Origin: Acholeplasmataceae bacterium
GTDB lineage: Bacteria > Bacillota_I > Bacilli_A > Acholeplasmatales > Acholeplasmataceae
NCBI GenBank assembly: GCA_024709245.1
Contig: JANJXB010000051.1
Coordinates: forward strand, 1 to 43,083
DNA length: 43,083 nucleotides
Reading direction: 5' to 3'
Both the position numbers and the translations under genes were made by a program. The notes under the pieces were generated by a model. The model saw only the letters and a list, made by a program, of their open reading frames with translations. It was not told the DNA's origin and did no database searches. Positions 11,760 through 38,063 of the stretch are shown piece after piece (the first letter of the stretch is position 1; each line of letters begins with the position of its first letter).

Positions 11760-14700
11760 TTATTCTAAGAGATATACGTAAAGTCCAATCATATCATGAT
11801 ACACTTGTTCACTGCCTAAAGTCCATGTCATGTTATTGATGTGAATTTGGATTGAACTGAGTCCTCTTAAATCGACTTCAACGTGGAACACATTCGGTAT
11901 TGATGTTTCAGTGATCGAAGTGATCATTAACATCTGTCCAGAGTTGTTGTAGATTTGCAACTGATCCAAATCATTGATGTCAATCATATAGTCAAATCCA
12001 ATATCAAATCCTGTCGTTGTTGTATTGGTGACATATCCTCGATTCAAGATATTAATGGTGCCCTGGCTATAAATCTTCATCATGCCACCGACATTGACTT
12101 CATCACCCGTTACTTTAACCATCATCATGTAACCCACATCATTCATGGTTGTAACATAAAGAGGTTGATTGGCTCCGGGAATCATGATTTCTTCCCAAGT
12201 ATAAGGATTAACTCGATACCATTGTAGGCTAATTCCACCTGAAACTTCTTGTCCTGTTAAGCTGTTATAAACTGTAACACTTTCAAGCTTCAATCCGCTG
12301 CCCACAAATGGACTCATGATACCTGTCAGATACATGCTTTGATCCAATGACCATCCTGCAAAATAAGTTTCAACTGAAGTGTAACCAAAGGATACAACAT
12401 TCGATACACTACCATGATCAGAAATCAAACGCACTGTCATCGGTCCATCCAGTTTCAAACTAAAATTGTTCCAAGTTGTGACTAGAGGCATACCATAATA
12501 GATCAAATCATACCACGCAAGATCAACTGGATCATAATACTGTAACTTCAGTTCACTGAATCCAAGTTCCCAAGGATATGGAAACTCAAGATCAACAATC
12601 AAATCGGTACCACCGAACCAGTCGTCGTGTCGGTCGACTTCAACCACTCTAAGTCCGCCAAAGGTATTTGGAGGAAGTGTTCCTGATACAACGGGTATCA
12701 TACCCATGGATCCTGGATTGTAACTTTGCATCGGATCTTCATATGCAGTTACAGCGAGATCTACAGCAAAATCAAGATTAAAACCATTGATAGTTGCTGT
12801 AACATGGAGGGTCACTGTATTTGGGAATTCTGATTCTGCAAATTGAATGACATTCCCGGTAAGTGTTGCATCCAGTGCATTGGCAGGATCTAAAACGAAA
12901 CTGTAGGTACCACCGTAAATCGGATGAGATGTTGAGAAATGATAACTTAAGCCATCCTTATACAATAAACCCATTTCATGCATGATGTAAGCTTTCATGA
13001 TGTCTGCTATTTCAGAATCCAGAAGCGTTACATTAAAGATTGCATCTTGAACAACGATGCATGTCCATCGAGGTCCAAACGCTGTGTAATAAAGTTGATA
13101 ATTGAAACATGACAGTCGAACATCATGATCTATGAATGTACTTAAGACATCTCGAATGGGTTGATCATAAATTTGCAGCATGATCGTATTAAGTCCATCC
13201 GTGAGGTAATAAGCATTGTCCCATGTGTTATAAATCAATCTTCCTTGTACCAAATGGTATAGCATGGGCTGTGCCACTTCATCAGCTTGTTTCGCAAGTA
13301 CTTCAAGCTCGGTTTCTGTCACAACATAAGGTAAACTCTGAAGTGTTGCGACAGGCTCGATACGTGCATTCCAAGCGTATCCACTCGCGAGAATGAAACG
13401 ATCATATTCTCTCTTTTGCGTGAAAATAATGACTTCATCGCCAACTTGTAAGGATGGATAACCTTCTCCGTAGAGATAAGATGAACTGACTCTATCATGG
13501 AAAATCACATCGCCATAAGGTGTTTTGTATAAAACAATCACTAATACTTTTGCATACTCATCATGCTCTAATTGATAGAATTCATCAATGGATAAAATAG
13601 GATAGGGTTGAGCAGTCAACGTGAAGACATGAGTCACTTCAAGTTCACCAATTGTAATCACGACTTGGAATAAGAATTGTGTTTCAGCAGTGATTTCTAA
13701 GATGAGCATTTCATCCAAATCGATGAATTCAGTACTTGAACCGATATAAGTCCAAACCAATGTTGCTTGGAGTGGTTCAAATACAGATGGTAACTCGATT
13801 GTATCACCTGGTCTAAATATCTTGCTTGTTTCAAGATGGTATGTACCTAAATCAATCAGTGCATCCATTCTTTCTTGATCTGTTGCATAATCGAGACTTA
13901 AACCCTGTTCTCTTGCAATAACCAGCATACGATCAGGTTCATATTCCTGAACGTTTAAATTGGGAATCAAGAAACCAACAAGTCTTAATCTTAATCCTTG
14001 AAGCATTCTTAACGAATCAAATGGATTATGAATTTGAATGATAGGCTCTTCTTGCATCATGAACATTGGCATAAAGGGTAAGAAATCACCAGTGCCAAGT
14101 CCTTCTGTAATCAGTGGCATATAAGAGTCATCCATGAATCCTAAATATCCAACCACTTCAACGAAGATACCCCAGTTGTTTCGATCTTCCATATCAAGTG
14201 CCCATAGACTGTCAATGGTATGAGATACCAATGTCATCGGATTTGGCATGTTATGTGATAATACTTCAACTAAAATCGTTGTTTCAGGATCCCACATCAA
14301 AGCAATACCCTCATGTGTTGCTCGGTATCCCGAAATGATGACTTCGTCACCAATCACCAAATCCATCATGGGTGCGATGAATAAATGACCGGTTGCATCC
14401 GCAATGATGGCTGGACCATCACCACCGAAATTTGATAAGACCACAATGCCTCTGAGCATGAAGAAATCCCCATCCACGCCAGCCTTAAATTCAGCAATCG
14501 TTTGTGTGTCAATCGGAACAACATGAAGTTGGAATTCGACGATTTCAACAGCTTCACCGACCGTAATGGTTGCTCTAATGTCAATAAAGATTTCTTCTTC
14601 GATGAGATGAGAGATAGCTCCCGTTGAAAGCGTATATAAACCAGCATTTAAACCAAAAACTTCGTATAAAACTGTAAATTCATAGGGAGGATAGGTATCC

Positions 14701-17700
14701 GGTAATACATGGAAAGCACCAGGTCTTAATATCTTTTCTTGATAATATCCTTCGATTTGATCAGCCAAAAAGAGCGCAAGTTCTGCATCGGTAAATCGCA
14801 AATCAATATCTCCTGGATAATCGATGTAGACAAGAACCATGAAGAGTTCACTGCCTGCTCGCATTGCAAATCCCTTAATTCTGACTTGAACACCAACATA
14901 TTCCATGAGATGTTCATATCCAGATGGACTAGCAACAAAGATTGGAACATTTTCTTCCCCTTCACTCAAATAGAACATGTCACCCATCGGATTAATCATC
15001 AGAGTGCCTTCAAGTTCGTAATACTTAAGATGTAATGATGGATCTGTTGCATCCAGTAAATTAAACGCTTCTAATGTGATCGGTGTTGCAACTAAAGGAT
15101 GCGGTACACCTGAGTTCATGATGGATTGAACAGTCTGTTCAGGATCATTCGCTAAAATCATCATGCCTTCAGAATTCATCAACATACCTTTTAACAAGAC
15201 TAAGTCACCAATCTGAATCATTTCATTGGTTGAAACGCTCATCAAGATACCCGTTGAATCCGCTATAATGATCATGTTTTGTTCCAATTGAATGAAGAGA
15301 ACAACACCTTGTACATAATACATCTCTTCATCGGTGACTTGGAGGAACTCTGCAACTGTCAAAATATCGATGGGTTGAACAAAGAGTTCGATATCAACTA
15401 TACCTGTTGCTGTGCCATAGGTGAGTGTTGCAATTAAACTAATCCATGTATCTTCTGTGATGTCTGGACTGATCTGCATTGTTAAAATATTGATCAAATG
15501 GCTATCTTCTTGGGTGACTGCATATTCAACAAAGATGTCAAAGACTGGATGTTGTAATGGTAATTCTGCAATCTGACCTGGATAGAATACAAGACTTTCT
15601 AAGAATGTTTGGAGCATAATCTTGATCAGGTCAATGAACTCTTCATCGGTATAATCCGGTTCAATCGCATCCGGTAGACCGGTAAAGATGAACATCATCG
15701 AAGGTATTCCATCAAAATTCGGTAAACTAATACCTCTGACAACGAGATCGAATTCAGTCAATCCAGAGAAATAGGAATACATGTCTTTGTCAAAGATGAC
15801 CATGGGTAACTGATGGATGCCATCGGTTAAGTAAACCATGTGTTCAAGTTCATCCAAAACAATCGTTCCTCTGATTTCAAAATATTGTACCCAATAAATA
15901 GGATTGTAGACATCTAAAGCATTAAACTGACTGATGGTAATTGGAGTTGAGATGAGTGGGGATTCTTGATCAACACCAATGACTTCAATATCAAGTCCTT
16001 CTTCTCCGCCGACCAATACATAGACACCTTCAAAAGGCATCTTGTATCCACCGACAATAACTAAATCACCAGGCTTGAATTGGTTGATGATTTCAATCGG
16101 TTCACCTTGAACTGTTGAAGATTCATCAAGCATAATCACTAGCGTTCCAGTTTCATCAGCAATCACTGCAATACCAAACATTGGATGTGAAATCAGAATG
16201 ACACCTTGAACCTTATAGTAACCCATATCTTCTGCTAGTTTGAAATCTTCAATAGACAGCAATTCAACAGGCTTCAAGATGATTTGGACTTCGATGAATC
16301 CAGTTGCTTGGTTGATTGTCACTGTAATTCTTAAATCAATGATTTTTTCTTCAACAACAGGTTGGAAGACACCTGTGGTAGGATTATAAAGTGATGCGTT
16401 AACTCCAAAGGTCACTGCTGAAATGGTTGCACCAAAAACAGGTTCAAGTGTAGGAATCATGAATGTCTGTCCGACATAGAAGACACGGCCATCCAACATG
16501 GATTCACCAAACAATAACAATTCATCCACTTTATCTTGATCTGTATAATTTTCAACAACAACAGCATTGGAATGTCCACTGTAGAGAATATGCCATTCAT
16601 AGTTATAACCATTGAAATCATGGATAATGGCTTGGAATGTAACTCTGCTACCCAATGCTGCCATGAATGGGTCATTCATTGGAGTCACAGACTTATAGTT
16701 AATAGCAATCGGTCGATCGCCACCCAAATCAGCAATGTAATAGGTCATGCCAAGTTTCATGAGGAAACCAGAGATGATGATGGGTTGACCATAGTGATAA
16801 GGATCATGTTCATCGGCTGTGGAGACTTCATTAAATGACATTGGACTGTATTCTGGCATCGTGATGGGGGTACTATTGGATGTCAAATTAGTAATGGTTA
16901 TCAGTTGTGGTGTGTTTTCAAAAGGTTGATAATCGGCTTCAAACTCAATCACATCACCAACGACGAATGAGCCAGGGAATCCTAAAACAAACATGTATCC
17001 TGTGCCATCATAGATGTAGAATCCTGGATTCATACCTGGGAACATGTAATAAATGATACCTCTTACCTTGACATGGTATGGATTGGTTTCCAAAATGGTG
17101 CTGATTCTTGTGTAACCATCATCAATAATCCATTTCGCATGAATGGTAATATCTGATGCAGGCATCGAATGGAAGTCAAATGGGATGGTGTATGTATCAT
17201 CTGCATACCAACCATCAAAAATCATGCCTTGTTTGGTAATGGGTCCTGGATATGGAACTGGTGTGTTGTAAGCTACGATTTCATCATCAATTAAAAAGTC
17301 ACCGCCATGGGTATTGTAGACAACGGTATAGAAATTGATGGTCCACTTACCATATGCATTGAGATGATTGGCTGTCATCACAGTGATGTCAAAGGGTTCT
17401 AGGAATAATTGGTCTTTGAACCAGCCAGCAAAAGTATATCCAACTCGAACTGGATCCGATGGAGCGATGATGGCTTGACCTAAACCATACACTTGAACCA
17501 ATGGACTCGATATACCATCATGCCAAGTTAAAGTATATTGATTTTGAGTATATTTCGCATAGAGAGTTGCACCACCGAGTGGCATGTTTACTTCGGTGAA
17601 TGGAATGAGTAAATCAATGTCTGTAAACCAGCCATCAAAAGCATGGTAAAGTTTCACAGGGATTGGTAAGACCAAAGCTGTTCCATAACCTTGAGTGATA

Positions 17701-18677
17701 TCCGTGACTGAACTACCACCATTTTCTTCAAAAGTGATGGTGTAGTTGTTTACTGTCCACTTCGCATAGAGTGTGATGCCATTCAGTGGCATGGTTCCAA
17801 ATGTGTATGCTGTTGTCAAAGCAACATCACTGTACCAACCACCAAATGTATAACCGTCTCGAGTAGGATTTGCAGGTTCTGTTACAGCACTTAAATAGGC
17901 TTGAGTGATATCTGTGACTGAACTACCACCATTTTCTTCAAAAGTGATGGTGTAGTTGTTTGCTGTCCACTTCGCATAAATGGTAAAGTTGCTCGTTGGC
18001 ATGTTGCCAAAAGAGTATGGGAGATTCAAAGCTGCATCGGAATACCAACCACCAAATGTATATCCGGTTTTACTTGGATTTGCTGGAGCAGTAATTTGAG
18101 TTCCAGCATTCTGTGTGATAGGTGCAATTAAACTACCACCATTGGTTTCGAAGGTTAATGTTGCAGTAACAATCACTTCATTCCATTTGGCATAGATTGT
18201 AATGTTTGCATTGGGCATTGTTGAAATCGTATAAGCTGTTAGAAGCCCAACATCACTAAACCATCCTCCAAAAGTATATCCTGATTTTGTTGGATCTGCA
18301 GGTGGCGTAATGGTTGCCCCTGCAACCAATGTAATGGGTGCGATTGTGCTACCCCCATTGGTTTCAAAGGTCATGGTAAATGAACTTAAGATTTCAGTCC
18401 ATTTCGCATAAAGCACAATCTCACTTTGTTGTGTCAAAAGCACAGCAATCGTAAACGGTGCCGTAAGCGCCTCATCTGTGAACCATCCATCAAATTCGAA
18501 TCCATTTCTGATGGGTTCAGGTAAGTCAATTGAGGTGCTGTTGATGCTAATCGTCATGTCTTCAACTTCTTCACCTCCGTTTTCTTCGAAGATGAGATTG
18601 ATTTCCTCACTACCGGTACACGCTGCTATACCGAAAATCACGAGGATGATTGAAAGCAATATCCATAATTTACGCAC
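11760..18677 (-). CDS. Giant modular surface lipoprotein: about 7 Listeria-Bacteroides (InlB B-type/Flg_new) repeats, then alternating OB-fold-like and Ig-like modules
   Basis: Lipobox VIFGIAAC; repeated GYTFGGWYSD...MPxxxxTIYAKW units; repeated YYKVQGVIL...IIADxTG...GDxVIVxGY modules. GTG start preferred because AAAAAAGGAGG lies just upstream. Confidence 0.85.
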   Translation of the reverse strand: MRKLWILLSIILVIFGIAACTGSEEINLIFEENGGEEVEDMTISINSTSIDLPEPIRNGFEFDGWFTDEALTAPFTIAVLLTQQSEIVLYAKWTEILSSFTMTFETNGGSTIAPITLVAGATITPPADPTKSGYTFGGWFSDVGLLTAYTISTMPNANITIYAKWNEVIVTATLTFETNGGSLIAPITQNAGTQITAPANPSKTGYTFGGWYSDAALNLPYSFGNMPTSNFTIYAKWTANNYTITFEENGGSSVTDITQAYLSAVTEPANPTRDGYTFGGWYSDVALTTAYTFGTMPLNGITLYAKWTVNNYTITFEENGGSSVTDITQGYGTALVLPIPVKLYHAFDGWFTDIDLLIPFTEVNMPLGGATLYAKYTQNQYTLTWHDGISSPLVQVYGLGQAIIAPSDPVRVGYTFAGWFKDQLFLEPFDITVMTANHLNAYGKWTINFYTVVYNTHGGDFLIDDEIVAYNTPVPYPGPITKQGMIFDGWYADDTYTIPFDFHSMPASDITIHAKWIIDDGYTRISTILETNPYHVKVRGIIYYMFPGMNPGFYIYDGTGYMFVLGFPGSFVVGDVIEFEADYQPFENTPQLITITNLTSNSTPITMPEYSPMSFNEVSTADEHDPYHYGQPIIISGFLMKLGMTYYIADLGGDRPIAINYKSVTPMNDPFMAALGSRVTFQAIIHDFNGYNYEWHILYSGHSNAVVVENYTDQDKVDELLLFGESMLDGRVFYVGQTFMIPTLEPVFGATISAVTFGVNASLYNPTTGVFQPVVEEKIIDLRITVTINQATGFIEVQIILKPVELLSIEDFKLAEDMGYYKVQGVILISHPMFGIAVIADETGTLVIMLDESSTVQGEPIEIINQFKPGDLVIVGGYKMPFEGVYVLVGGEEGLDIEVIGVDQESPLISTPITISQFNALDVYNPIYWVQYFEIRGTIVLDELEHMVYLTDGIHQLPMVIFDKDMYSYFSGLTEFDLVVRGISLPNFDGIPSMMFIFTGLPDAIEPDYTDEEFIDLIKIMLQTFLESLVFYPGQIAELPLQHPVFDIFVEYAVTQEDSHLINILTMQISPDITEDTWISLIATLTYGTATGIVDIELFVQPIDILTVAEFLQVTDEEMYYVQGVVLFIQLEQNMIIIADSTGILMSVSTNEMIQIGDLVLLKGMLMNSEGMMILANDPEQTVQSIMNSGVPHPLVATPITLEAFNLLDATDPSLHLKYYELEGTLMINPMGDMFYLSEGEENVPIFVASPSGYEHLMEYVGVQVRIKGFAMRAGSELFMVLVYIDYPGDIDLRFTDAELALFLADQIEGYYQEKILRPGAFHVLPDTYPPYEFTVLYEVFGLNAGLYTLSTGAISHLIEEEIFIDIRATITVGEAVEIVEFQLHVVPIDTQTIAEFKAGVDGDFFMLRGIVVLSNFGGDGPAIIADATGHLFIAPMMDLVIGDEVIISGYRATHEGIALMWDPETTILVEVLSHNMPNPMTLVSHTIDSLWALDMEDRNNWGIFVEVVGYLGFMDDSYMPLITEGLGTGDFLPFMPMFMMQEEPIIQIHNPFDSLRMLQGLRLRLVGFLIPNLNVQEYEPDRMLVIAREQGLSLDYATDQERMDALIDLGTYHLETSKIFRPGDTIELPSVFEPLQATLVWTYIGSSTEFIDLDEMLILEITAETQFLFQVVITIGELEVTHVFTLTAQPYPILSIDEFYQLEHDEYAKVLVIVLYKTPYGDVIFHDRVSSSYLYGEGYPSLQVGDEVIIFTQKREYDRFILASGYAWNARIEPVATLQSLPYVVTETELEVLAKQADEVAQPMLYHLVQGRLIYNTWDNAYYLTDGLNTIMLQIYDQPIRDVLSTFIDHDVRLSCFNYQLYYTAFGPRWTCIVVQDAIFNVTLLDSEIADIMKAYIMHEMGLLYKDGLSYHFSTSHPIYGGTYSFVLDPANALDATLTGNVIQFAESEFPNTVTLHVTATINGFNLDFAVDLAVTAYEDPMQSYNPGSMGMIPVVSGTLPPNTFGGLRVVEVDRHDDWFGGTDLIVDLEFPYPWELGFSELKLQYYDPVDLAWYDLIYYGMPLVTTWNNFSLKLDGPMTVRLISDHGSVSNVVSFGYTSVETYFAGWSLDQSMYLTGIMSPFVGSGLKLESVTVYNSLTGQEVSGGISLQWYRVNPYTWEEIMIPGANQPLYVTTMNDVGYMMMVKVTGDEVNVGGMMKIYSQGTINILNRGYVTNTTTTGFDIGFDYMIDINDLDQLQIYNNSGQMLMITSITETSIPNVFHVEVDLRGLSSIQIHINNMTWTLGSEQVYHDMIGLYVYLLE
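17690..17978 (-). repeat. Pair of ~79-bp near-identical direct repeats (17690-17768 and 17900-17978, 210-bp period) within the B-repeat region
   Basis: Shared CTTGAGTGATATC(C/T)GTGACTGAACTACCACCATTTTCTTCAAAAGTGATGGTGTAGTTGTTTRCTGTCCACTTCGCATA with about 2 mismatches. Confidence 0.85.
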
Positions 18678-18717
18678 AAGAATGCCTCCTTTTTTCACGA
18701 TGCAAGAGAAGACAAAA

Positions 18718-34279: not shown

Positions 34280-34315
34280 AAAAGAAGGCGGTTCGTTAAG
34301 AATCGCCTTTTTTGA
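34274..34315. terminator. Bidirectional terminator
   Basis: AAAAAAGAAGGCGGTTC-GTTA-AGAATCGCCTTTTTT. Confidence 0.75.
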
Positions 34316-35462
34316 TGTCAAAATATACCACATGTCTCAGTTTACCACCATACCTCAACACATTTTCAGCTGAAATATAGAAGCCTGATTTCATGAAATT
34401 GTTCAAACTGTGTAAGTTTTTCGGTGATACTGTTGCACAAATCAAATCATAGTTATTCTCTTTGGCAAAGTGAATTGCTTCCTCAATCAATCTTTTTTGT
34501 ATACCTTGCTTACGATATCTCAAATCAACGAGCATCGTGTCAATGGATAATACTCGAGTCAATAAAGAGATCTCCTCATTTGAACGATAGACACTACGAT
34601 TGATATTCTTAACTGGTTTCAGTCCAACATAGCCCATCATACCCCAACGTGACTTTTCAATCCGTACTTCCTTCTTGAGTACCATCGTTTTCAAGGATAA
34701 AAAACTACTGGGGGCGAATAACTCTTGATCATCTTTTTCAGTTGCTTTTAAAGATCTTCTTTGCATCGCCCAGATGGCAAATACATCTTTTGGTTTTGCT
34801 ACTTGAATACCATATGCAACTTCTTTGTTCGTCAAATATTCGATGCATTTGGGATGATGCTCAAATAAATTGTTTTCCCATAGTACAATCACATCACTCA
34901 CTCGTTTTCCACTTTTTTTCATCTTGCGCAAGCGATGTTTTGTCCATTTATCATAGAGCTTGAAAATATTGATGTATGAATCAATCAGTTTGGGAGCTGT
35001 CAATTCAGTTTCTTGGACAACCTTATTATGAATCATGATGAAAAAACGATATCCAAAGAGATCATCAATGGTCTCAATCTTGATGATTCCTTTCACAATC
35101 AAATCGTGAAGAGTCTCGAAAAAGGTGAGATAAACAACAAATGAAACAACATCATCTTCACCAATCTTTGAAGGATCTTCAGGTTTTCTGTAGTCATGTT
35201 CGAGTTTTTGATAAAGTGAGCAAATGAGACTGTTGGATGTAAAGTCACGATTTAAACTTGCCACAAACTCTGCTTCTTTTAATTTTCTCGTCTTATTCGA
35301 CTCATAAATCAGTTTGAGTAATCCAATCGCAGCCCCAATGAGTGCTGCACCTTCAACATATTTCATCAACTCATCAAAATAAACGGCACCTAGAATCAAT
35401 ATAAAAATGACAATAAAAAAGATTAAGCCATATTGCTTCAATCTCTGATTATCCATGATCAA
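34296..35462 (-). CDS. Membrane-anchored protein with C-terminal GNAT acetyltransferase domain
   Basis: Two N-terminal hydrophobic segments; C-terminal DTMLVDLRYRKQGIQKRLIEEAIHFAKENNYDLICATVSPKNLHSLNNFMKSGF. Confidence 0.75.
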   Translation of the reverse strand: MIMDNQRLKQYGLIFFIVIFILILGAVYFDELMKYVEGAALIGAAIGLLKLIYESNKTRKLKEAEFVASLNRDFTSNSLICSLYQKLEHDYRKPEDPSKIGEDDVVSFVVYLTFFETLHDLIVKGIIKIETIDDLFGYRFFIMIHNKVVQETELTAPKLIDSYINIFKLYDKWTKHRLRKMKKSGKRVSDVIVLWENNLFEHHPKCIEYLTNKEVAYGIQVAKPKDVFAIWAMQRRSLKATEKDDQELFAPSSFLSLKTMVLKKEVRIEKSRWGMMGYVGLKPVKNINRSVYRSNEEISLLTRVLSIDTMLVDLRYRKQGIQKRLIEEAIHFAKENNYDLICATVSPKNLHSLNNFMKSGFYISAENVLRYGGKLRHVVYFDIKKGDS

Positions 35463-35524: not shown

Positions 35525-35558
35525 ATTAAAAAACTGACCCATGACAGGTCAGTATTTT
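35525..35558 (-). terminator. Terminator after the ECF S-component gene
   Basis: Minus strand ACTGACC-TGTCATG-GGTCAGTTTTTTA. Confidence 0.75.
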
Positions 35559-36091
35559 TACTTTGTTTCAAGATAATAATGTTTCGTTTGTTCCAAGAGT
35601 AACTTTTTAAGTGGCTCATACAACCAGTAGATCGAAAGAAAATTGCTGACCGCCATCACCATCTCAAAAGGCAAATCCATGATGAAATAGGTCAAAAATG
35701 GAATTCCAAGAACAAATACAGAGATGGGTATGAATGCCCAGCCATAAATGAATCCAAACAATAATCCCGTACATGCAAGATGAATTGGAGATTCAAGTTT
35801 CTTAAATACGGTTTGAAGCAATACTGGAATCATCATATAGCCCACAAACATCGAAATGAAATGTAGCGGAATCACAGCGCCAAAAGGAGATAAAGTATTG
35901 TAGAGAATGACATGAATGATGATAATCAGTGTTGTTCTCTTAAATCCAAGAACTTTTGAGTATAAAACGAGAAGTAAAACCGTGGTCTGAACATTCGGAA
36001 GAAAAGACAGTGCAATTTGCTGTACCAGCAAAATCGCTGAAAGAATGGCAATCAATGCCACATCTTTCGTTCCTTGATGCAATTTACTCAA
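35558..36091 (-). CDS. ECF transporter S component, predicted cobalamin/corrinoid-specific
   Basis: 177-aa, ~6 hydrophobic segments, DVALIAILSAILLVQQIAL start; cobalamin-riboswitch operon context. Confidence 0.75.
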   Translation of the reverse strand: MSKLHQGTKDVALIAILSAILLVQQIALSFLPNVQTTVLLLVLYSKVLGFKRTTLIIIIHVILYNTLSPFGAVIPLHFISMFVGYMMIPVLLQTVFKKLESPIHLACTGLLFGFIYGWAFIPISVFVLGIPFLTYFIMDLPFEMVMAVSNFLSIYWLYEPLKKLLLEQTKHYYLETK

Positions 36092-36097
36092 ATGTCA

Positions 36098-36565
36098 TCA
36101 CCATACTTCCTCTACCTTGATTTTAATCCGATCTTGATCATCAAATGCCAATTGCATCACGCCTTGGGGGGTCAGCTTGAATTCAGATCCATCCCATTTG
36201 TAGATGGATAAGTAGGTATGTTGCCAATCCGTCATCAATTCAAATGTCGTTCCTTGAATCCCCAGTATCACTTTATCGGATGTTCCAAAACTGGAAAATG
36301 TATAACTGCATGTATCATCTTGTTGATACGCCTGATTTGCACAGGTCAGTTCAAAATGGGCTTGTAATAGATCATAAAATGTCATGCCTTCTTCAAAACT
36401 CAACCACGCTTCATAAACAATCGTACCCGATTCATCTTCTAATATCAGCTCAATTTCACCAGATTCCAAAGCATGATTATTGGTTTGTAACAGTCTGATT
36501 GCTGTAAAAACGCTCGCCAGAGCGATGATACTGACGATGAATTTGACAGCAAGTTTTTTCATCAT
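36098..36565 (-). CDS. Membrane-anchored DUF4430 (transcobalamin C-terminal-like) protein
   Basis: Signal/TM N-terminus; SFEEGMTFYDLLQAHFELTCANQAYQQDDTCSYTFSSFGTSDKVILGIQGTTFELMTDWQHTYLSIYKWDG. Confidence 0.65.
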   Translation of the reverse strand: MMKKLAVKFIVSIIALASVFTAIRLLQTNNHALESGEIELILEDESGTIVYEAWLSFEEGMTFYDLLQAHFELTCANQAYQQDDTCSYTFSSFGTSDKVILGIQGTTFELMTDWQHTYLSIYKWDGSEFKLTPQGVMQLAFDDQDRIKIKVEEVW

Positions 36566-37761
36566 TGGACCTCAAAAGGAGTCAATTGAAAGAGATTGAA
36601 TGCGGGATTTCCATAAACATCTCGATACAATTTATAAGCTACAAGTGCAGCAAACACTTGAGGAGTCGAAAACATCAGATCTGCACTCTCCGAATCAAGT
36701 GTCCATTTGAATGCACCTTCTTCACTGTACAGCAAGAGCGCTTCAATCAGATCAACACCCTCAGTCTCGAAATCCACACCTCTTGGATTGATTCCAAATG
36801 AAACAAGACCTAAGATAACTGCTGCAGTTGATGATGCATTGGAGCTACCCCATGCTGATACACCTGTAGCGGTTAAATTCTCTTGGATGAAATCGATATA
36901 ACTATCCTTCGCAGCATCGACTTGAAGAACATCATGATAGGGAGAAATCGCGAGCATTGCCATGCCTGCAAAGTCTGAATCCATATAGGTTGGAAAGGTT
37001 GAAATGATTTGACTAATCAATTGATTAATGGTTGCATCACGATTTTCAATCAAAGAATATGCCGTGAGAAGGGCGATCGATTCGTAGTGATTTGCCGGTG
37101 TGAATCCATCAAGTGCTAAGATTGTTTCATCTTGATTCAAGGAGAAAATGGTTTCATATATCGTTGTCTTCATCGCATTTGCTATCGAATCTCTTGAAAG
37201 TAAGGATGCAGGTGTAGAAATCCATGCAGAAAGCGCAGGAACATCGTATCCTTTCGTGTAAAGTTGATGAATGGCAGCAGCGACATGATGATCTGTCATC
37301 GTATTTGAAAGATAAGTATCTAAATAAGTGTCAATAAACAATTGAATCAAACGATCCACTTCCAAATCGGTTTCATCCAAAAGTGTGACTTCAACAAAAC
37401 TAATTTTGGTACCGTCAGTTACCGTCACTTGATCAAGACCCACTGTGGATGAGACACCATCCACAAATAAAGAATAGTAATAATTATATGTCACACCATA
37501 TTCGGTTGGGTAATTCCCACCAACACCGTTGATGAACGTTCCTAATGAGAAAACTGTGTAATCTAATCCAATAGCCTCATCAATCAGTTCAACCAAATCC
37601 AATGTAGACTCAGGGTCAAAAGTAATCCTTTGTGAAATGATGATATCCCCTTCGAGATTCACAACTTCAACAGTAAATGTATCTTTTTCATCATCTTTCG
37701 TACACCCAGCGATGGTGATGAAAACAAGCAGTAAAACAACAACCAGTAAGATCTTTTTCAT
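36562..37761 (-). CDS. Lipoprotein with DUF4430 beta-domain followed by alpha/alpha-toroid (transcobalamin/intrinsic-factor-like)
   Basis: Lipobox VFITIAGC; VVNLEGDIIISQRITFDPESTLDLVELIDEAIGLDYTVFSLGTFINGVGGNYPTEYGVTYNYYYSLFVDG; then helical repeats (WGSSNASSTAAVILGLVSFGINP, DLMFSTPQVFAALVAYKLY). Start at 37761 after AAGGAG. Confidence 0.75.
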   Translation of the reverse strand: MKKILLVVVLLLVFITIAGCTKDDEKDTFTVEVVNLEGDIIISQRITFDPESTLDLVELIDEAIGLDYTVFSLGTFINGVGGNYPTEYGVTYNYYYSLFVDGVSSTVGLDQVTVTDGTKISFVEVTLLDETDLEVDRLIQLFIDTYLDTYLSNTMTDHHVAAAIHQLYTKGYDVPALSAWISTPASLLSRDSIANAMKTTIYETIFSLNQDETILALDGFTPANHYESIALLTAYSLIENRDATINQLISQIISTFPTYMDSDFAGMAMLAISPYHDVLQVDAAKDSYIDFIQENLTATGVSAWGSSNASSTAAVILGLVSFGINPRGVDFETEGVDLIEALLLYSEEGAFKWTLDSESADLMFSTPQVFAALVAYKLYRDVYGNPAFNLFQLTPFEVQ

Positions 37762-37782
37762 GTCCATTCTCCTTATAATAAA

Positions 37783-37812
37783 TATAAAATCCACATCTCT
37801 GGTGATGTGGAA
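37783..37812 (-). terminator. Terminator of the cobalamin riboswitch expression platform
   Basis: Minus strand TCCACATC-ACCAGA-GATGTGGA-TTTTATATTT before the lipoprotein gene. Confidence 0.7.
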
Positions 37813-37865
37813 AATAGACAAAAAAGAAATTTTTGCCCTTCTCAACCCCAGAAGATGACTTCAGT

Positions 37866-38030
37866 TGATGTTCGGTAGGTCTCCCGGCTTGACTTCATCC
37901 TAATTTGCGCCTTCCCGCTTTCGCAGTGGCCTATCGCATTTCGTCCGTCTCACGGTTGCTGGGACAGCTTGAGATTGCTACTCAATTCCCTGTTATGTTG
38001 CACGCAACACCGATCCATCGATTCAGTTAC
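37866..38030 (-). ncRNA. Cobalamin (B12) riboswitch
   Basis: Minus strand AACAGGGAATTGAG...AGCTGTCCCAGCAACCGTGAG...GCCACTGCG...GCGGGAAGGCGCAAATTAGGATGAAGTCAAGCCGGGAGACCTACCG, matching B12-box and core. Confidence 0.95.
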
Positions 38031-38034
38031 TTCA

Positions 38035-38063
38035 ATTATAGACTAGGTATCTACTTGAATCAA
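38035..38063 (-). promoter_or_regulatory. Promoter for the cobalamin riboswitch operon
   Basis: Minus strand TTGATT-17 nt-TATAAT. Confidence 0.7.

Follow-up and report, generated by a model that had tools for sequence, protein, structure and literature searches.

A putative cobalamin riboswitch-controlled corrinoid import operon in Acholeplasmatales, pairing an ECF S-component with transcobalamin-like extracellular proteins

Introduction

The animal vitamin B12 carriers, transcobalamin and intrinsic factor, hold the corrinoid between an alpha/alpha toroid and a beta domain. In bacteria, ECF transporters are thought to bind their substrates through the S-component only, and the textbook cases operate without an extracytoplasmic binding protein. 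Surface B12 lipoproteins are known from Bacteroides, where the folds are different and the partner is an outer-membrane TonB-dependent transporter, not an ECF S-component. The bacterial proteins closest to those reported here were predicted in 2007, and we know of no test of a protein of that kind. Burroughs et al. (2007; PMC1796856) defined the SLBB superfamily, including a transcobalamin C-terminal clade, and described bacterial proteins, secreted or surface-exposed, in which the beta domain is fused to an alpha/alpha toroid located either N- or C-terminally. A second beta-domain paralogue was often found in the same operon, with genes for the ABC-type proteins CbiO and CbiQ nearby. Such proteins occurred in bacteria lacking B12 synthesis, and a role in B12 scavenging was proposed. 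As for ECF transporters of B12, ECF-CbrT (6FNP) has been shown to transport both cobalamin and cobinamide, and its S-component was described as acting as the substrate-binding protein itself (PMC5997447).

Here, we analyse an operon within a 43,083-nucleotide stretch of an Acholeplasmataceae genome (the window). It is probably a riboswitch-controlled operon for the import of corrinoids (vitamin B12), in which one protein (D1) would capture the ligand, a second (D2) would provide a docking site and an S-component (S) would import it together with a shared ECF module. As in the SLBB-toroid operons of 2007, a beta domain is combined with a toroid, a beta paralogue is encoded in the operon and scavenging is the proposed role (PMC1796856). 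Unlike those operons, this one encodes an S-component of the CbrT type, and genes for an ATPase or a T-component are absent from it (PMC1796856). It also differs in its cobalamin riboswitch with terminator and in the membrane anchor of D2, while relatives show D2-S fusions and toroid-only D1 proteins.

Results

The operon occupies the minus strand from 38063 to 35533, in the order promoter-like site, cobalamin riboswitch, terminator, D1, D2, S and terminator:

38035..38063, minus strand: promoter-like site TTGATT-17-TATAAT, directly 5′ of the aptamer (consensus scan)
37857..38029, minus strand: cobalamin riboswitch aptamer RF00174, full-length (cmscan)
37790..37811, minus strand: leader intrinsic terminator (expression platform), TCCACATCACCAGAGATGTGGA-TTTTATATTT, between aptamer and D1
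36562..37761, minus strand: D1, lipoprotein of 399 aa, beta domain then alpha6/alpha6 toroid
37384..37683, minus strand: DUF4430/transcobalamin-type beta domain of D1, residues 27-126 (Foldseek)
36607..37374, minus strand: 12-helix alpha/alpha toroid of D1, residues 130-385 (predicted structure)
36098..36565, minus strand: D2, 155 aa, second, diverged beta domain behind an N-terminal transmembrane anchor; docking subunit on S (proposed)
35558..36091, minus strand: S, 177 aa, TTG start, ECF S-component of the CbrT (vitamin B12) type
35533..35553, minus strand: end-of-operon intrinsic terminator, 9 bp stem plus T run, 3′ of S

The aptamer matched model positions 1-189 of RF00174 with a cmscan score of 85.6 bits (cut-off 31.5, E 7.4e-20), and no second cobalamin riboswitch was detected in the 1.54 Mb draft genome (126 contigs, 93% complete). 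The promoter-like site agrees with the consensus at 10 of 12 positions, a level of agreement that shuffled sequence produces equally often. The leader terminator folds with a z of -3.8 and its arms covary across sister loci, 28 out of 39 of which have a terminator 41-49 nt 3′ of the aptamer, compared to 1.5 expected from shuffles. D1 and D2 share 4 nt, and only 6 nt separate the end of D2 from the start of S; therefore, the three genes are likely carried on a single transcript. A membrane-anchored GNAT acetyltransferase is encoded 3′ of S (34296-35462, minus strand). We placed it outside the cassette because it follows S only in the window and in its closest relative, G030.

Elsewhere in the window, a lysine riboswitch (33880-33670, minus strand, 62 bits) heads a lysine-fermentation operon. 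Its hairpin, GAGCUGUU-UGCC-AACAGUUC, is followed by U5. Lysine binding should prevent termination, given that the 5′ arm of this hairpin includes the 3′ strand of aptamer stem P1, and the element may act as a lysine ON switch for the catabolic operon. At 11760-18698 (minus strand) lies the gene for a surface protein of 2312 aa, which resembles a lipoprotein and contains GGWFSD..L...YAKW repeats.

D1 carries a lipobox (IAG-C20) and matches the DUF4430 family (PF14478) with 26.3 bits, above the cut-off of 23.8; it is the single DUF4430 match in its genome, and 28 out of 31 sequences of the D1 alignment match PF14478 at E<=1. The AlphaFold2 model, computed with 31 homologues (mean pLDDT 92.2, pTM 0.87), consists of a signal helix, a beta domain (residues 27-126) and twelve helices (130-380) arranged as an alpha6/alpha6 toroid. 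Foldseek aligned the beta domain, predicted as a beta-grasp fold of the transcobalamin kind, with 3u7z (DUF4430), 5no0 and 5np4 (human transcobalamin) at target TM scores of 0.70-0.78, and the leading PDB matches of D1 include squalene-hopene cyclase, intrinsic factor (3kq4) and transcobalamin (4zrp and 2bb5). With VIA-align, residues 131-399 superimposed on intrinsic factor 2pmv_A with a Z score of 16.9 (rmsd 3.5, 234 aligned residues), lower than the 19.3 obtained with a terpene cyclase; terpene cyclases and sugar epimerases account for the top toroid scores. The toroid match alone was rejected as proof of a B12 carrier, the fold being generic; in the predicted model, it is the beta-domain match that is informative.

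The D1 profile found no transcobalamin or intrinsic factor among all PDB sequences, and single-sequence phmmer searches of the PDB returned nothing useful. Pfam and NCBIfam contained no cyclase or epimerase family matching D1, and no NCBIfam model matched D1, D2 or S. Conserved polar residues (Y226, D261, D263, N308, S311, T312, S365, T366 and Q368) were located at the N-terminal ends of the inner helices of the toroid, which is where a toroid ligand site would be expected. Their mean conservation was equalled by 7 out of 256 circular shifts.

D2 has one transmembrane segment, at its N-terminus, and no lipobox cysteine was seen on reading its sequence. Searched alone, it gave no convincing match to any Pfam family, PF14478 included, and a profile built from D1 only misses the D2 of the window. 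Profile-profile comparison was needed: hhalign related the D2 alignment to the D1 beta domain with a probability of 97.6% (E 3.8e-12), and 5 out of 23 D2 homologues match PF14478 themselves. The preliminary description had presented D2 as a second membrane-anchored DUF4430 protein; the anchor and the kinship with the D1 beta domain agree with this. In four loci (L136, L137, L091 and L096), D2 and S form a single protein of 368-385 aa, which argues for a physical partnership of the two. The model of the fusion reached a moderate pLDDT of 73.6. Its D2 part matched the transcobalamin-type structures 7qbg and 2bb5 in Foldseek searches, and its membrane part matched RibU and FolT. For the combined D2 and S alignment, we used a smaller set of sequences, as a broad version had misplaced D2 rows on the S half.

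The S protein scored 17.8 bits with the ECF_trnsprt family (PF12822), below the cut-off, while 15 out of 27 of its relatives matched this family at E<=1, the best at 2.9e-7. When the S profile was compared with all PDB sequences, the sole S-component match was CbrT (6fnp_A, E 1.2e-5), over the full length; no cobalt S-component was matched. A first S alignment was too diverse, and a narrower one was used to scan the genomes. The genome of the window encodes one ECF module, with EcfT and two ATPases in a single cluster in the truA-tmk neighbourhood of contig C109. Its location on another contig is as expected for a shared module. An ECF S-component, a cobalamin riboswitch with terminator 5′ of the lipoprotein gene, and a lipoprotein in which a beta domain precedes toroid-like helices had all been proposed from the letters alone. 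Each of these proposals is borne out, for the toroid by structure prediction, and no firm assignment of S to another substrate emerged, its sole sequence relative of solved structure being the cobalamin protein CbrT.

Across 160 genomes of the order, DUF4430 was found in 59 and the cobalamin riboswitch in 53. Among the 41 riboswitch loci that were read out in the order, including the window, 38 are followed by an S homologue. Of the other three, two end at contig edges; the third, at L100 (G148), is a second riboswitch and lies 5′ of genes for an anaerobic (class III) NrdD-like ribonucleotide reductase and an activase-like partner, as judged by reading the locus. Conversely, D2 was beside or fused to S in 39 out of 39 loci of named genomes found from S alone, and the riboswitch was present in 16 out of 18 distant loci found by S. 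It was also present in 12 out of 18 further loci, mostly from a phylum-wide D1 search, some of which had been selected because the riboswitch was missing. A chance neighbourhood as the explanation for the linkage between S, D2 and riboswitch was rejected on the locus counts (38/41, 39/39 and 16/18).

In nearly all congeners, D1 comes first in a tight operon with D2 and S. More widely, the architecture of the locus varies and includes a beta protein with S, a toroid-only D1 with D2 and S, tandem beta domains and D2-S fusions. One locus, L197 (G490), encodes in the D1 position a 631-aa protein with three beta-domain matches behind the same riboswitch. Another, L094 (G104), has two D1-like lipoproteins in a row 5′ of D2 and S: one of 435 aa with a Ser/Ala-rich linker, then one of 392 aa. 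The host is most likely wall-less, judging by its named relatives, which comprise Peloplasma aerotolerans and other Acholeplasmatales as well as Izimaplasma and related MAGs. The lipoproteins would then lie directly on its surface.

The gene neighbourhoods of relatives converge on corrinoids, as shown by CobA, PduO-type, MetH and glutamate mutase neighbours. In G012 and G014, where the riboswitch is absent, the operon with S ends in a CobA-type ATP:corrinoid adenosyltransferase. At L072 (G036), the riboswitch is in line with a short DUF4430 lipoprotein, a diverged S, a PduO-type adenosyltransferase and 2,4-diaminopentanoate dehydrogenase; there, the import cassette heads an ornithine-fermentation cluster. 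Proteins of the MetF and MetH-like kinds are encoded in line with the cassette in G143 and G144, MetH directly 5′ of it at L137, and the glutamate mutase S subunit in line with it at L191. Both the riboswitch and this operon context support the reading as corrinoid import.

Lysine 5,6-aminomutase (KamDE, 27476-25163) and a PduO-type transferase (24895-24254) are encoded in the genome of the window itself, as is glutamate mutase on contig C36. The likely corrinoid consumers of this genome are glutamate mutase and KamDE, for which the PduO-type transferase would provide the cofactor. The preliminary description had assigned the cassette to the supply of AdoCbl to KamDE, which remains a plausible consumer, glutamate mutase being another. 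CbiC was not detected in this 93% complete assembly, and thus the cell probably depends on corrinoid uptake. Contig C118 (L178:2477-3127) encodes a B12-binding protein of 216 aa next to a MacB-type ABC transporter; the protein is similar to the C-terminal portion of CarH and shows no evident HTH region.

Discussion

We propose that, when AdoCbl is low, transcription would read through the leader, and that at high AdoCbl the aptamer would favour the terminator, making the element an OFF switch. As a lipoprotein anchored at the external side of the membrane, D1 would bind the corrinoid between its toroid and a beta domain, in a site like that of transcobalamin. D2, sitting on or beside S, would receive the loaded toroid, and S would take the corrinoid and pass it inward by docking to EcfA1-EcfA2-EcfT. 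The AdoCbl needed by lysine 5,6-aminomutase and glutamate mutase would then come from the PduO-type enzyme.

An alternative is that S and D2 form a complete B12 importer, with D1 in an auxiliary role, such as storing B12 at the surface or stripping it from other carriers. Four loci (L092, L093, L095 and L102) encode a short beta-domain protein and S behind the same riboswitch and lack D1. By analogy with CbrT, whose S-component is credited with substrate binding (PMC5997447), S alone could bind B12. However, this alternative does not sit well with D1 as the first gene of a tight operon in nearly all congeners, with the conserved polar residues at the ends of its inner helices, or with the toroid-only D1 versions (L112, L138, L191 and L192), which possess the toroid but no beta domain. 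We consider it unlikely. Since several relatives lack D1, S does not depend on it to function, and collection would be optional. The simplest model covering all variants would have D2, on S, as the docking site and D1 as the collector.

The cassette might instead import another ligand of the corrinoid pathway (cobinamide, other precursors or cobalt complexes) and not complete cobamides. Riboswitch control is compatible with any B12-pathway uptake, CbrT transports cobinamide as well as cobalamin (PMC5997447), and the adenosyltransferases found in line also act on incomplete corrinoids. Against it stand the lack of a detected CbiC and the relationship of S to CbrT, with no cobalt S-component matched, and we regard this ligand range as rather improbable. 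Under the corrinoid-import reading, a preference for cobinamide or another corrinoid would be equally possible. Finally, an enzymatic role for D1, whose toroid would be of the terpene-cyclase or epimerase type and whose riboswitch linkage would reflect something else, is highly improbable: cyclases and epimerases give the best toroid Z scores, but D1 is an extracellular lipoprotein with an N-terminal transcobalamin-type beta domain, matches no such enzyme family and is constantly linked to a CbrT-type S and a cobalamin riboswitch.

Returning to corrinoid import with D1 as collector, D2 carries the sole beta domain in operons with a toroid-only D1, and in these relatives only D2 could close the clamp. 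We tentatively suggest a split transcobalamin assembled at the membrane: a mobile lipoprotein would supply the toroid, and S would bear the closing beta domain, either bound or as a fusion. If so, the B12 clamp would close directly on the importer, and the system would represent an ECF transporter using an extracytoplasmic binding protein. More generally, in this operon a B12 S-component has extracellular partners of the same build as the animal B12 carriers, and in some relatives one of these partners is fused to it. Import of this kind would account for the cofactor supply of wall-less amino-acid fermenters that depend on B12. The operon also lends itself to testing, on a small scale, the 2007 proposal that the animal carriers descended from Gram-positive scavenging proteins.

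The novelty of the locus is smaller than the preliminary description claimed, because Burroughs et al. (2007) had predicted proteins of this kind. The order of beta domain before toroid is indeed reversed with respect to the animal proteins and a stand-alone beta paralogue, D2, is present; neither is special, both having been described in bacteria in 2007 (PMC1796856). The text of that study mentions no riboswitch. In a literature search that covered few subscription journals, we did not find the riboswitch link, the CbrT-type S, the D2-S fusion or the split arrangement, and the papers naming DUF4430 that it covered yielded no bacterial B12 function. The CbrT-type S, the riboswitch, the D2-S fusions and the toroid-only D1 are, therefore, apparently new elements.

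Compared with ECF-CbrT (6FNP, PMC5997447), S is related in sequence over its full length, and sharing of a group II ECF module is expected in both. The match is distant, and CbrT is described as binding B12 alone, whereas extracellular beta and toroid partners accompany S here (PMC5997447). As in the Bacteroides systems (PMC6143338), a surface lipoprotein would catch B12 ahead of a transporter. With animal transcobalamin and intrinsic factor, D1 shares the combination of toroid and beta domain, matched by structure comparison. It differs from them in its domain order (beta 27-126, toroid 130-385) and in a toroid without detectable sequence similarity to either carrier. The partner differs too, being a membrane importer here and receptor endocytosis in animals.
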